NCBI GenBank assembly: GCA_023248635.1
Contig: JAHFED010000065.1
Coordinates: 1 to 33,423 of the forward strand
Length of the DNA: 33,423 nucleotides
From: Myxococcales bacterium
GTDB taxonomy: Bacteria > Myxococcota > UBA727 > VGSZ01
Direction: 5' to 3'
Shown: positions 6,185 through 28,296 of the stretch, piece by piece
Numbering within the stretch: position 1 is the first letter of the stretch
How the letters are laid out: every line of letters begins with the position of its first letter
Translations under genes and position numbers: made by a program
The notes under the pieces: generated by a model
What the model was told of the DNA's origin: nothing
Databases searched by the model: none
What the model saw: only the letters and a program-made list of their open reading frames with translations

Positions 6185-6266
6185 GCGAGCGTGGCGGAAT
6201 TGGTAGACGCACTGGATTTAGATTCCAGCGGGGTGACCTGTGGGGGTTCGAGTCCCCCCGCTCGCA
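6185..6266 (+). tRNA. tRNA-Leu (anticodon UAG)
   Basis: The acceptor arm GCGAGCG pairs with CGCTCGC at 6259-6265, with A as discriminator. The D arm, an anticodon stem CTGGA/TCCAG with loop TTTAGAT (anticodon TAG), a long variable arm and the T arm GGGGG-TTCGAGT-CCCCC are all present. The long variable arm and anticodon make it Leu, reading CUA and CUG-type codons. The 3' CCA is not encoded. The 323-bp gap after it (6267-6590) holds a 67-bp hairpin repeat at 6465-6531; the rest shows no gene I can support. Confidence 0.97.
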
Positions 6267-6464: not shown

Positions 6465-6531
6465 AATTCATCGCCGCCAGGCGATGAACCTGTAGACAAT
6501 TCACCGACACGCGAAGCGCTGTCGGTGAATT
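6465..6531 (+). repeat. 67-bp double-hairpin repeat, copy 1
   Basis: The element is bounded by AATT at both ends. The first hairpin (6467-6488) is TTCATCGCC-GCCA-GGCGATGAA. A linker CCTGTAGAC leads to a second hairpin (6498-6531) with arms AATTCACCGACA and TGTCGGTGAATT around CGC-GAA-GCG. It is identical over 67 bases to the inverted copy at 27581-27647 and related to copies at 9366 and 17262. It lies 60 bases before the start of the 5'-nucleotidase gene. Confidence 0.9.
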
Positions 6532-6590: not shown

Positions 6591-9362
6591 ATGTCTCGTG
6601 CCTTCGCTCCCGCGCTCTTTTTGTTCTTGATGACGCTGCCGGCCTGCAACTGCAGCGAGGCCCCTGTGGAGGGCGAAGGCGACGAGGGCGAAGGAGAGGG
6701 AGGCGAAGGAGAGGGCGGCGAAGGAGAGGGCGAAGGCGGAGAGGGCGAAGGCGAAGGAGGCGAAGGCGAAGGCGAAGGCGGGGAAGGTGAGGGCGACGAA
6801 GGCGAAGGCGAAGGCGAAGGCGGGGAAGGTGAGGGCGAAGGCGAAGGCGACGTCGACGACGTGGTCACGCTGCAGCTGCTGACGATCTCTGACTGGCACG
6901 GTCAGGTCGATCCCCTGATCGTGCGAAATCCCGCCACCGGCGTCGACGACCTCATCGGCGGCGCTCCCGCTCTGGGGGCCTATTTCGACGCCCACCGCGC
7001 GGCGAATCCCAACACGCTCGTTGTGGCCGGCGGCGACTCCTTCGGCGGATCGCTGCCCCTCGTCTCGTTCAACAACGAAGAGCCTGCGGTGCTGGCGCTC
7101 AACCTCATGGGCCTCGACTACGACACCTTCGGCAACCACAACTTCGATCGCGGCCTCGCGCACCTGCAAGCGATGATCGACCTCGCGGACTACACCTTCG
7201 TCTCATCGAACCTCGGCAACCTGGCGGCCAACCTCAACGGCGTCGTCAGCCCCTTCGACATCGTCGAGATCGACGGGCTGAACGTGGCCATCATCGCGGT
7301 CACCAACGACGACGCCCCGGATCTCGTCTTCCCGGGGCGCCTGGGCACCATCACCGTCCTCGCCTCCGCCGCCGCGGCCCAGACGGCCCGTGACGCCGCC
7401 GACACCGCAGGCGCCGATGTCTTCGTCGCCATTGCCCACCTGGGTGCAACCGGACGCGATGCGACCGGCGCGCCCACCGGCCCCCTGCTCGACTTCGCCG
7501 CTGCCCTCAACGGCTTTCAGGCCGTCATCGGCGATCACACCGACTTCGAAGTCAACACCGTCGTCAACGACGCTGTGGTGGTCGAAAACCGCAGCAAAGG
7601 CCGCACCTACGCAAAGATTGAGCTCACGTTCACGCGCGCGACCCAGGACTTCGAGTCGGCCGACGTCGAGATCATCTCGCCCCTCGTCGCCAACGTCACG
7701 CCCCGCGCCGACATCGTCACCTTGCTCGACGGCTTCCGCGCTGATCTCGCCGGGGTTCTCGATCGCAAGATCGCTTCGACGTCGGCCCTCTTTGATCGCG
7801 GCAACAACGTCGAGCGCCTCTCCGAGATGCCGATCGGTGACCTGGTAGCCGACGCGTTCCGTGTCCACTACGACGTCGACATCGCGCTGACCAACGGCGG
7901 CGGCATCCGCGACAAGATCCCCTCAGCCTATGTCCCAGTGGCGGTCCGCGATCGCGCCCTGCCTGACGCTGACGTCGTCGTCGGCGACGCCTTCGCCGTC
8001 CTGCCCTTTGGCAACTTCGTCGTCACCCGTACGGTCACTGGTGCCCAGCTCCGCGCGGCCCTGGAGCACGGTCTCGACGCTCTGCCAGCCGCCAATGGGC
8101 ACTTCCCGCAGGTCTCGGGCATCAAGGTCGAGTACGACGCCAGCCTCCCCGTCGGCGGCCGCATCACCTTGCTCACCCAAAGCGACGACACCCCGATCGA
8201 CGATCTGACGGAGTACACATTTGCCACCACCGACTTCATCAACCTCGGCGGCGACGGCTACAACATGTTCAACGACGGCGAGGGAACGACCCGCGAGGTC
8301 GCCGCCGATGTTCTGGCCGCAGAAATCGAAGTCTTGGCCAACCTGGTGCCCGCGACCGATGGGCGCCTGACCGACCGCACCCCCGCCGGTGAAGGTGAAG
8401 GCGAAGGCGAAGGTGAAGGGGAAGGCGAAGGGGAAGGGGAAGGCGAAGGCGAAGGCGAAGGCGAAGGCGAAGGCGAAGGCGAAGGGGAAGGCGAAGGCGA
8501 AGGCGACGCCGGCAACTTCTTTAATCCCGCGTTGGTCAGCCTGGACTTCGCCGCCGACCTCGACATCAGCGACGCCGACGACGTCGATTGCTACGAGTTC
8601 ACGGTCCCGGCCGACGGCACTCTTTCGATCGCGGTCGATGACGGCGCCGGTGGTTGTCCCGCCCTCGCCGATCCCGAGCTCGATCTGCTCGACGCCGACG
8701 CGCTGGTCATTGACAACGACGACGACGGCGGCGCGGACTTCTGCTCCAGCCTCGTTGGCGTGCCGGTCTTCAGCGGCGAAGTGCTCACCGCCTGCGTGCG
8801 CTCCACCGATGTCTTTGGTTTCGAAACGGCGTCTTTTGGGCTGGTGATCGACGCTCGCTTCGAAGGCGAGAGCCCCGGCCTGCTGATCAGCGAGGTCGCC
8901 GACCATCCCAATGGCCTGGTGAAGTTCGTCGAGATCTTCAATGCCACCGCGGCGTCCATCGATCTCGCTGCCACCACCGTCGACGTTCGGACCTTCTCCA
9001 ACGGCAACACCTCGCCCAGCGCGACCATCGCCCTCACCGGCACCGTGGCCGCGGGCGCGACCTTCGTGCTTGCGAACAAAGCGACCGAGTTTGCGGCGGC
9101 CTTCCCGGGTCGCTCGGCGAGCCAGGAGCGGGGCAACCTGAGCGGCAACGGCGATGATGCCTACCAACTGCGCTCTGGCGGCGTCGTCCTGGATGTCTAC
9201 GGCGACATCGGCGTCGACGGCACCGGCGAGGATTGGGAGTACACAAACGGCGGGGCCAAACGCAACGCCGGCATCACGAGCGGCGGCCGTGGGTTCTTCT
9301 TCGCCGAGCAGTGGACCATCGCCACCGAGAGCGCTGAGGGCTTCACACCCGGCGTGCGCTGA
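6591..9362 (+). CDS. 5'-nucleotidase-family lipoprotein with Glu-Gly linkers, PPC-like and lamin-tail domains
   Basis: A 923-residue surface or periplasmic protein. It starts [19 protein letters not shown], with LPAC (Cys19) as lipobox. Residues about 27-86 are a Glu-Gly linker. Next is a calcineurin-like metallophosphatase domain: SDWHGQ (Asp101, His103), [11 protein letters not shown] (Asp149), GNHNFDRG (Asn182-His183), IAHLG and GDHTDFEV. The 5'-nucleotidase C-terminal domain follows ([35 protein letters not shown]). A second Glu-Gly linker of about 40 residues comes next, then a PPC-like beta domain and a C-terminal lamin-tail domain ([20 protein letters not shown]). The family removes phosphate from extracellular nucleotides. 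ATG 6591 has GGAG 9 bases upstream. A repeat element begins right after the stop. Confidence 0.92.
6669..6849 (+). repeat. Hexanucleotide coding repeat, first Glu-Gly linker
   Basis: Imperfect repeats of GAGGGC, GAAGGC and GAAGGA in frame encode an acidic (Glu-Gly)n linker just after the lipid-anchor cysteine. Codon variants are mixed, so this tract is older or less homogeneous than the second one at 8389. Length changes in units of 6 would keep the frame. Confidence 0.85.
8389..8505 (+). repeat. Hexanucleotide coding repeat, second Glu-Gly linker
   Basis: Almost pure tandem GAAGGC with a few GAAGGT and GAAGGG variants, about 19 units, encoding a Glu-Gly linker between the nucleotidase domains and the PPC-like domain. 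It is more uniform than the first tract, which suggests recent expansion by slippage. Confidence 0.9.
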
Positions 9363-9365
9363 GAA

Positions 9366-9410
9366 TGCATCGCCGCCAGGCGATGAACCTGAAGACAATT
9401 TCGGCCGAAA
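9366..9410 (+). repeat. Double-hairpin repeat, copy 2 (diverged)
   Basis: It begins 4 bases after the nucleotidase stop. The first hairpin CATCGCC-GCCA-GGCGATG and linker AACCTGAAGACAATT match the 67-bp element, but the second hairpin is replaced by a different short palindrome, TTTCGGCCGAAA (9399-9410). At this position the hairpins could help end or stabilise the nucleotidase transcript. Confidence 0.75.
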
Positions 9411-17140: not shown

Positions 17141-17261
17141 CGGTAAGCGATCATGACACGCAGGACCAAGCGAAGGTTCCACGGATCTGGTGAACGCGGC
17201 GTCGACGCCGCGGGTCTGTGCCCATGCGCACAAGCCGACGTTCGCAGACCGGGGCGGAGAA

Positions 17262-17326
17262 TCATCGCCGCCAGGCGATGAACCTGCAGCAAATTCACCG
17301 ACGCGCGAAGCGCTGTCGGTGAATTT
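17262..17326 (+). repeat. Double-hairpin repeat, copy 3
   Basis: The first hairpin TCATCGCC-GCCA-GGCGATGA (17262-17281), the linker ACCTGCAGC, and the second hairpin (17291-17326) match the 67-bp element with a few changes; for example CGACA is CGACG and the linker is altered. It lies in the 432-bp gap 17141-17572 between divergent genes and runs straight into the hairpin trio. Confidence 0.85.
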
Positions 17327-17432
17327 GAGCCGTGCCAACGGCTCAAACCATCGACACTTTGCGCCATGCCAACGGCGCAAAGCAGGAAGTACTTTGAGCC
17401 GTGCCAACGGCTCAAACCGTCGGCACTTCCAG
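17324..17432 (+). repeat. Tandem trio of hairpins with GCCA loops
   Basis: Three hairpins at 17324-17347, 17357-17382 and 17393-17416 are spaced by about 34-35 bases. The first and third are TTTGAGCCGT-GCCA-ACGGCTCAAA; the middle one has arms CTTTGCGCCAT and ACGGCGCAAAG. Different stem sequences pair with the same GCCA loop. Spacers CCATCGACA and CCGTCGGCACTTCCAG are related to each other. The loop is shared with the first hairpin of the 67-bp element. Confidence 0.85.
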
Positions 17433-19729: not shown

Positions 19730-21316
19730 ATGTACGTCCGGGGGCGACTCCTCGGCACAGATCGACGTCGATGGCTGGGCGACCAGTACCGGAATGTGTC
19801 GATCAAAAGGTTCGGAGACTTGGCCCGCCCAGAACCGTTTCGTGGACTGCTGGAGGAGGCGTGTTTGGCCGCCCCTGAAGCAGATCAGCCCGACGTCTTT
19901 TCGGACGCAGCGTCTGCATCACAATTCTCTGCCTTCAGGCCGGGTGCCCAATTGCAGCTGGCGCGGGAAAAGGCGCTCCAGTCGGATCCGCCCTTCCTTG
20001 TGGTGGCGCCCACCATCAGCCCACCGCCGGCCCTCGACGATGAGCACCAACAAACAACGCTCGAGCGTCGTCTCGACGCCGCCATCCTCGCGGCCGGGGC
20101 CACCCCTCCGCGGGGCATCCGCTCGGCGCCCGAGCTGCTGAGCGCCCGGCGCGGCGCCTTCGATCGCTTTGGTCCGCACGACCGCCTGGGTCACCTCGAG
20201 CGAGCCGATCGCAGCGCCACACGCTTGGATGCCGACCATCGCTCGCGTTCGGGGGATCTCGTGCCGCTGCGGCTCGATCCGCCGCAGCCCGGTGAACACA
20301 GCTCCCCTCGTCTCTCCGTCGACGTCAGCACCAAGCCTGCCCCACGGGTTCTGCAGCTGACCAAGGATGCGCAACGCAGCGCCGACGCCGTCGACGCGAG
20401 ACCCACCGAGCGCAGTCGGTCTTTTGCCGCGCGGGTCCACACCAACGTGTTTCGCTTTCGCGGCGACGACCCGCCCCCCCGACCGCTGCCTGCTCTGGCC
20501 GCCCTCGAAGAAGAGATCGCTCCTCGACCCCGCGCCGACAAAGTGGCGACTTTGAACACTGCTGCGCGCCTGGGCATCGCGGTGCGCTCCTTTTCGTCTG
20601 AGGATTTGGGCGACGACGAGAGCCCGCCGGCGGTGGTCGAGGTCACGACTCCCACCAAGACCAGGGCCGCGGCCGCCGTCGCGTTGCGCGGTCTGTCCGA
20701 CGAAGGCGTCGGCGAGCTCGGCACCGTCGACGACGTTGTCGCCTTTGGTTCGGCGGCTGACCTCGATGAACTCGCGCACCAGCTGGGCATTCGTGGAAGC
20801 GCTGTGCCGCGCTCGGATCGCGGCGAGGAACAGTTAGACGAGATCTCGGCCGACGACATCGAGCTGGTGGCCGCACCTGCCGATCGCGCCAGCGTCCTGC
20901 GGGGCCGACGACCAGACGACGACGACGACGACGCCTTCGACGACGAGCTTGAGATCACGGCACCCCGCGCGGTGATCGCCGCGGCCTTGCCCGCCTCCCT
21001 CTTTCGGGATGTCGCCGGAGCATCGGCCTTCGACGACGAAACGCCTGCGCGTGCCCGGCCTGCGCTCCAAGCACCCCGGGCGGTGCGCTTCATCGTGAGT
21101 GCGGCCCCCGCGCGGCCACGACACGAGTCTCTGTCGGCGGAAGATCAGGCCCGCAACCGTCTGCGCGCCCACGACCTCTATCTCGTTGCCATGGACGATC
21201 TCGGCGGCCGCGATCCCGAGGGTGCGATCGTCCACCTCGAATTGGCCGTCGCCTACGACGAGGAAACCACGCTCTATGCTGACCTCCTCGACCAGTTGAA
21301 AAAGGCCAGGGCTTGA
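19730..21316 (+). CDS. Hypothetical acidic protein with TPR-like C-terminus
   Basis: About 528 residues, no recognised enzyme domain. The middle is low-complexity, rich in Ala, Arg, Pro and Asp (with a run of six Asp near residue 400), and likely disordered. The last 60 residues (DQARNRLRAHDLYLVAMDDL then GAIVHLELAVAYD) look like a TPR-type helix pair. Such Asp/Pro-rich proteins with a terminal TPR segment are common in Myxococcota. The first 60-70 residues have weaker codon bias than the rest, so the true start may be later; GTG at 19796 is one alternative. The ATG at 19730 has an AGGA that is too close. tRNA-His follows 42 bases after the stop. Confidence 0.65.
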   Translation: MYVRGRLLGTDRRRWLGDQYRNVSIKRFGDLARPEPFRGLLEEACLAAPEADQPDVFSDAASASQFSAFRPGAQLQLAREKALQSDPPFLVVAPTISPPPALDDEHQQTTLERRLDAAILAAGATPPRGIRSAPELLSARRGAFDRFGPHDRLGHLERADRSATRLDADHRSRSGDLVPLRLDPPQPGEHSSPRLSVDVSTKPAPRVLQLTKDAQRSADAVDARPTERSRSFAARVHTNVFRFRGDDPPPRPLPALAALEEEIAPRPRADKVATLNTAARLGIAVRSFSSEDLGDDESPPAVVEVTTPTKTRAAAAVALRGLSDEGVGELGTVDDVVAFGSAADLDELAHQLGIRGSAVPRSDRGEEQLDEISADDIELVAAPADRASVLRGRRPDDDDDDAFDDELEITAPRAVIAAALPASLFRDVAGASAFDDETPARARPALQAPRAVRFIVSAAPARPRHESLSAEDQARNRLRAHDLYLVAMDDLGGRDPEGAIVHLELAVAYDEETTLYADLLDQLKKARA

Positions 21317-21358: not shown

Positions 21359-21435
21359 GGCGGTCGTAGCTCAGTTGGTAGAGCACTGGATTGTGAATCC
21401 GGGTGTCGCGGGTTCGAGCCCCGTCGATCGCCCCA
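21359..21435 (+). tRNA. tRNA-His (anticodon GUG), CCA encoded
   Basis: The anticodon stem CTGGA/TCCGG encloses TTGTGAA (anticodon GTG). The acceptor GCGGTCG pairs with CGATCGC, and an extra G at 21359 faces C73 at 21432, the hallmark of tRNA-His. CCA is encoded at 21433-21435. D and T arms are regular. Confidence 0.97.
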
Positions 21436-22277: not shown

Positions 22278-22440
22278 TGCCCCTGGAACCGAGGCGCTTT
22301 GATGAAATCGCGCCGCGGGTTTTCGTCGAGGGCAAGGCGCGGCGGAGGGAGGGCTGGCCCTCGTGGCCAGACCGAGCAGGCAACGATGCCATCGGCGAAC
22401 AGACCAAGCGAGCTCGCATAGAAACCTCGGTTCCAGGGCA
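22274..22440. mobile_element. MITE-like element 2, abutting a TAG stop
   Basis: TGCCCCTGGAACCGAGG (22278-22294) is inverted at 22425-22440 with one base missing. The 163-bp interior has no gene. Read on the minus strand it has CGATGGCATCGTTGC, a central hairpin CTGGCC-ACGAG-GGCCAG, and the block GCGCCTTGCCCTCG shared with element 1 (116-279). On the left it abuts CTAG, which contains the stop of the TPR gene; on the right the flank is CGCA, so no target duplication can be shown. It fills most of the 174-bp gap between the TPR gene and the convergent pseudo-receiver gene. Confidence 0.65.
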
Positions 22441-27580: not shown

Positions 27581-27647
27581 AATTCACCGACAGCGCTTCG
27601 CGTGTCGGTGAATTGTCTACAGGTTCATCGCCTGGCGGCGATGAATT
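27581..27647 (-). repeat. 67-bp double-hairpin repeat, copy 4 (identical to copy 1, inverted)
   Basis: Read on the minus strand it is base-for-base identical to 6465-6531, including the AATT at each end, the linker CCTGTAGAC, both stems and the GCCA and GAA loops. Hairpin 2 is at 27581-27614 and hairpin 1 at 27624-27645. It lies in the 275-bp gap 27425-27699 between two minus-strand genes. Confidence 0.93.
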
Positions 27648-28206: not shown

Positions 28207-28296
28207 TGGCGGAGCGGGAGGGATTCGAACCCTCGATACCCTTGCAGGTACGCCAGATTTCAAGTCTGGTGCCTTCAGCCACTCGGCCACCGCTCC
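28207..28296 (-). tRNA. tRNA-Ser (anticodon UGA), CCA encoded
   Basis: On the minus strand GGAGCGG pairs with CCGCTCC, with G73 and an encoded CCA (28207-28209). The anticodon stem CCAGA/TCTGG holds CTTGAAA (anticodon TGA). The long variable arm and the T arm with GGTTCGAATCC are typical of tRNA-Ser. Confidence 0.97.

Follow-up and report, generated by a model that had tools for sequence, protein, structure and literature searches.

The 67-bp repeat that occurs twice in the window (the whole 33,423-bp stretch of DNA analysed, which is the entire contig C119) belongs to a family of short palindromic modules dispersed over hundreds of sites in a myxobacterial genome, and is probably a non-autonomous REP/RPE-like mobile element whose two modules, A and B, would insert at or next to AATT-type sites through an HUH/Y1-like movement. 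The host is an uncultured Myxococcales-type genome (G000) of 6.53 Mb in 135 contigs, 96.7% complete. A preliminary description of the window had suggested a REP-like element, and this character was borne out by the number of largely intergenic copies, by their recent spread and by insertions at sites that are empty elsewhere.

The two 67-mers are exact reverse complements over 67/67 bp, start and end in AATT and each form a GCCA-loop stem and a CGC-GAA-GCG stem, all as first described. Folded as DNA, hairpin 1 has a 9-bp stem with the loop GCCA and hairpin 2 a 12+3-bp stem with an apical CGC-GAA-GCG and one bulged C; the complete fold reaches -25.4 kcal/mol (z = -7.5) and was equalled by 0 shuffles. 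By chance, the A pattern is expected ~0.01 times and the B pattern 0.00 times within the window. Two further window copies had been reported as diverged: one indeed keeps both hairpins with substitutions, and the other retains the first hairpin only (Table 1). Two of the three tRNA genes of the window sit ~0.2-0.6 kb from the two identical AB units. These tRNAs were the sole Rfam hits in the window, the repeats matching no Rfam family. Additionally, the segment at 8388-8506, which lies in a long ORF, has numerous matches in the related genomes G001 and G002 (83-95% identity) and resembles a low-complexity coding repeat, of Glu/Gly type, from surface proteins.

Table 1. Coordinates of the repeat modules and associated genes (window positions unless a contig or locus is named)
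Feature	Position	Strand	Structure and context	Evidence
AB unit	6465..6531	+	A AATTCATCGCC-GCCA-GGCGATGAACCTGTAGAC (33 bp) + B AATTCACCGACACGCGAAGCGCTGTCGGTG (30 bp) + closing AATT	sequence, genome-wide identical copies, fold
Identical AB unit	27581..27647	-		sequence match
Solo module A	9364..9400	+	left AATT degraded (AATG), right AATT intact; directly 3' of the stop of the preceding ORF	
Diverged AB unit	17260..17325	+	closing TT fused to F3 hairpin array	
Three tandem F3 modules	17324..17416	+	TTTGAGCCGT / TTTGCGCC.., GCCA loop; directly after AB unit, mosaic array	
F5 module	19925..19949	-	AATT-GGCCGCCCGGCCTGAGGGCAGAG-AATT type	match, <=5 mismatches
tRNA gene	6185..6266			
tRNA gene	21360..21432			
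tRNA gene	28210..28296			
tsaB	L138:11100-11987 = C11:31100-31987			
Example of a predicted insert peptide (AroA or TsaB)			VGELSTGSSPGGDEF	
RAYT-like gene	L034:1539-2492 = C9:359453-360406 region	-		profile search

The 67-mer is not the smallest unit of the family, being composed of two separable modules that are also found alone. Module A (33 bp) has the layout AATT-hairpin-CCTGTAGAC and module B (30 bp) the layout AATT-hairpin; the AATT is common to each joint, hence the period of 63 bp in (AB)n and of 33 bp in A(n) arrays. The in-register forms comprise solo A, AA, AAAAABB, inverted B, ABbA, BB, (AB)n, A(n)B and A-only 33-bp arrays. Inverted pairs of B are rare, and A and B are different hairpins joined head to tail in a fixed direct order. 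Other hairpin modules join the A/B arrays in register to give mosaics, such as the one at 17260-17416 of the window, namely F2 (TTCAAGACGC-GCCA-GCGTCTTGAA plus a linker of ~9 nt), F3 (TTTGCGCCGT or TTTGAGCCGT, with a GCCA loop) and F5. In the 1.6 Mb surveyed, the loop was GCCA in 191 of 304 perfect hairpins with an 8-bp stem and a 4-nt loop, on stems including TCATCGCC, CAAGACGC, TGCGCCGT and TGAGCCGT and falling into three unrelated types; no GCCA-loop enrichment was seen in the sequence sampled from G002 (242 kb) or G003 (119 kb). The two stem forms of F3 differ by a compensatory pair, and one copy of A in G001 shows a compensatory stem change from C-G to G-C (GGC/GCC), both with GCCA retained, which indicates that the structure and the loop are conserved rather than the stem sequence. 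The motif GTAG lies 5' of B, within the linker between A and B, and recurs in the G001 copies; its conservation is no better than that of neighbouring bases.

Throughout the host genome we counted at least 24 identical full 67-mers, together with 254 sites for hairpin A (TTCATCGCC-GCCA-GGCGATGAA) and 174 for hairpin B (TTCACCGACACGCGAAGCGCTGTCGGTGAA) at up to 3 mismatches, the reversed or scrambled control patterns giving 0 sites. A/B arrays lie at or next to the ends of several contigs (C4, C21, C48, C80, C101 and C132), so that copies are possibly missing from these counts and array lengths are uncertain. AB arrays were intergenic in 40 of 52 cases, intergenic bases representing 10%, a bias that is expected if insertions within genes are usually purged. 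Copies in the hundreds, largely between genes, had been anticipated for a mobile repeat. The converse situation, a few copies at positions occupied in all relatives, does not apply: among the 38 relatives searched for A and B, only G001, a congener of the host, gave a match, with three diverged copies, and the other 37 carried none. In other genomes, the A hairpin was present only on two contigs of one Myxococcales MAG, CAJBHN01, which is apparently the same as G001. No match to the repeats was obtained in phage and plasmid collections or in exact scans of IMG/VR, and none to F2 or F3 in G001-G003, a search that had no positive control.

The AB family is young and of recent shared origin. Of 83 AB units, 26 equal the consensus, and the mean number of differences is 3.1 per 63 positions between arrays and 1.9 within them, to be compared with a difference of ~28% between aligned genes of the host and its nearest relatives. 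The perfect identity of the window pair, previously ascribed to recent movement or gene conversion, does reflect recent spread but is not peculiar to the pair, given the other identical 67-mers; a special gene conversion between the two copies is unneeded. Furthermore, units of long arrays have private variants in common, indicating that these arrays grew locally by tandem amplification.

Mobility of the repeat is well supported by comparison of occupied and empty sites. One F2 unit (33 bp) lies within one copy of F4 and is missing from the other aligned F4 copies, its flanks carrying the target-derived sequence ACATCAAG on both sides. F2 is also inserted as 33 bp at AACTTCAA in two copies of the dispersed repeat F6 (C11:9835 and C18:55251), five other copies being empty, and F5 occupies an AAT site whose counterpart in paralogous DNA near position 22281 of the window is empty. 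For A/B we found no empty site that aligns cleanly on both flanks at the DNA level, and the flanks of the window copies could be aligned with G001 or G002 on one side only, at 72% identity. At the protein level, AB units do occupy sites that are empty in orthologues. F4 itself is a 222-bp dispersed repeat of several nested hairpins (CTCATCCCGCGTCC...), found for example at C18:71130-71380 and in dozens of other places; its core was counted ~39 times in 1.6 Mb.

The protein-level evidence comes from in-frame insertions in conserved genes. In aroA, an AB unit is inserted in frame and adds ~22 residues; in tsaB, a 225-bp array of seven modules (BBAAAAA) adds 75. The insert peptide is absent from the AroA orthologues of G001, G002, G003 and G005 and from the TsaB orthologues of these four genomes and G006. 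Both genes are apparently single-copy in the host, and both halves of each protein match the orthologues in one frame, which makes assembly chimerism unlikely. Other in-frame A/B cases concern LipB, TcdA (C-terminal), Ser/Thr kinases, an SLT transglycosylase, the C-terminus of a histidine kinase, an alpha/beta hydrolase and others. Three frames are free of stops, and 13 of 15 in-frame cases use the same one, giving FTDSASRVGELSTGSSPGGDE (P about 1e-4). The insert peptide is hydrophilic and predicted to be disordered: in AlphaFold models built from shallow alignments, the AroA and TsaB inserts had pLDDT < 50, most of the core scoring well above. Palindromic elements extend conserved enzymes by ~21 to 75 residues in a myxobacterium.

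The flanks of 73 A-bearing arrays, from 1.6 Mb plus extra loci on large or repeat-bearing contigs, carried AATT on the left in 49/73 and on the right in 60/73, a marginal difference (P = 0.056). AATT had been considered a possible target-site duplication. It is indeed usually found on both sides, but of 24 deviant left flanks (ATTT, GGTT etc.) just 1 was mirrored on the right, and a 4-bp duplication is therefore not demonstrated. For A/B, this pattern disfavours a simple duplication of 4 bp and is consistent with the element bringing its own right end, mutation of old flanks being an alternative explanation for the unmirrored cases. The F2 target TTCAA is complementary to the foot of the F2 hairpin (TTGAA), an arrangement that would permit guide-like pairing; the flanks of F2 in F4 look more like a target duplication than like IS200/IS605 joining.

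The preliminary description had also considered that a RAYT-type transposase mobilises the repeat and that a Y1/RAYT gene might be flanked by it, neither of which is supported by the gene content of the host. Searching the host genome with PF01797 gave nothing at E 0.01; a relaxed search and NF047646 yielded one RAYT-like homologue of 317 aa with a DnaA_C tail (NF047646 E = 1.5e-10). In this protein EVR replaces HUH and His replaces the catalytic Tyr, and the host genome yielded no catalytically competent transposase of the Y1 (PF01797, NF047646) or Y2 (PF04986) type. An IS91-like Y2 transposase, considered as a separate candidate, had no match in the host, in a search where control genomes gave only a weak signal. 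The RAYT-like gene is vertically inherited and conserved across the family with or without repeats: its orthologues in G001, G002 and G003 have identical active-site losses, and G002 and G003 carry no A/B copies. A single hairpin A lies on one side of the host gene, 17 bp past its stop codon; given ~100 or more arrays, a hairpin this close would by our estimate arise by chance at the per-cent level, and neither the G001 nor the G003 orthologue has an A beside it. Similar proteins with a DnaA_C tail are known in subclass 2.1 of the HUH superfamily (PMC6006769), and the host protein is probably a domesticated DNA-binding protein. That it still mobilises A/B with a partner nuclease, as the sole RAYT relative found in the genome and with a hairpin at its 3' end, is hard to reconcile with these losses and with their occurrence in repeat-free relatives, and we regard it as highly improbable. 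Metagenome assemblies often lose multicopy transposons. Since several contigs also end inside arrays, the missing enzyme counts for little as evidence, and a multicopy transposase could be missing from the host assembly.

Three explanations that dispense with an HUH/Y1-like enzyme were weighed against these data. A DDE transposase that moves MITE-type elements as double-stranded DNA and duplicates AATT (or TTCAA/AAT) at insertion would account for the AATT bracketing most arrays, for the deviant target on both sides of F2 in F4, for the AAT on both sides of the F5 insertion and for one AABB array with ATTT on both sides. We nevertheless find this unlikely, considering not only the scarcity of mirrored deviant flanks but also that the 30-33-bp units are almost all hairpin, with scant room for terminal repeats and internal sequence, that different families have the loop in common and not the ends, and that no full-length autonomous copy was seen, a k-mer survey revealing no long repeat besides the 222-bp F4. 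Spread by recombination only (slippage, unequal exchange or template switching at TTCAA or GAATTC), requiring no dedicated enzyme, draws on the local amplification seen in long arrays, which is real, on the likeness between the end of F2 and the exact site into which it inserted (AACTTCAA) and on the variant base of the F4 target kept on both sides. It appears quite unlikely as the sole process in view of the hundreds of dispersed loci with unrelated flanks and exact unit boundaries; these features, together with a loop conserved across unrelated stems, imply a factor that reads structure. Finally, the repeats might be functional elements that do not move, serving as transcription terminators, mRNA stabilisers or protein-binding sites, and owe their number to selection and gene conversion. 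Their hairpins are strong, they prefer intergenic regions, and they are somewhat over-represented between convergent genes (11 of 38 AB arrays vs 85 of 645 intergenic regions). We consider this reading very unlikely, however, because AB arrays occur in every gene configuration, in both orientations and in frame within coding sequences, because sister modules are precise insertions into other repeats, and because the elements match no Rfam family and are missing from most relatives.

For the preferred reading, a non-autonomous palindromic element, the following scheme can be put forward. A single-strand, hairpin-reading (HUH/Y1-like) transposase would recognise the loop, and the unit would be joined 3' of a short target pairing with the hairpin foot, TTCAA/TTGAA in F2 and TTC/GAA in A. 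The putative enzyme might be missing from the assembly, located on another replicon, or extinct. Arrays may then grow through unequal recombination or slippage, and insertions in genes would survive only if in frame and forming disordered loops. It is conceivable, albeit doubtful, that one loop-reading enzyme mobilises cassettes with different stems (A, F2 and F3) and the same GCCA loop, inserting each at the exposed end of an earlier one and so producing in-register mixed arrays, genes included.

REPs and RPEs are common repeats, but their mode of movement and the number of them that a single enzyme can serve are unsettled, particularly for the classes that have no transposase. To this question the present genome brings 30-33-bp units with exact boundaries, empty sites for sister modules, a loop common to unrelated stems and very recent activity. 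We conclude that the A/B family is a new family of REP/RPE-like palindromic elements with unusual modularity. Like REPs, REPINs and BIMEs, A and B are dispersed palindromes of 20-40 nt with hundreds of mostly intergenic copies, mosaic or tandem clusters and some occurrences in ORFs, and loop-dependent recognition is known for group 3 TnpAREP (PMC3733652, PMC3116915, PMC8266576). In contrast to the RAYT-linked GTAG class, no competent RAYT accompanies A/B, and GTAG is confined to the A-B linker, being absent from those of F2 and F3. REPINs are mainly inverted pairs, the doublet being the mobile unit, whereas A/B units are joined head to tail in register via a common AATT. IS200/IS605 ends also place a hairpin beside a short target, which is selected when it base-pairs with a guide close to the foot of the hairpin (PMC8266576); F2 could mimic such pairing (TTCAA/TTGAA), but here no TnpA or full-length element was found and one case, F2 in F4, is duplication-like.

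With RPEs and the CGTC class, which has 8-9-bp stems and 4-5-nt loops, the A/B family shares palindromic repeats lying in frame within protein-coding genes (here aroA, tsaB, lipB, kinases and others) and the lack of a known mobiliser (PMC3733652, PMC10969869). It differs from them in having no terminal unpaired CGTC (the A/B consensus contains no CGTC), a conserved GCCA loop, separable 30-/33-bp modules, AATT joints, a myxobacterial host and a seven-module array of 75 codons within tsaB. PARCELs are likewise dyad-symmetric DNA arranged in tandem within ORFs (PMC2996958), but they are 25-residue protein repeats of ORFs, whereas A/B are mostly intergenic and their peptide is hydrophilic and of predicted disorder. 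REPs within ORFs encoding 20-30 residues, in clusters up to 43-82, have already been described (PMC3733652), so that in-frame insertion of A/B has precedents. The distinctive trait seems to be the combination of very short modules, a common GCCA loop and in-register assembly through AATT/TT joints.
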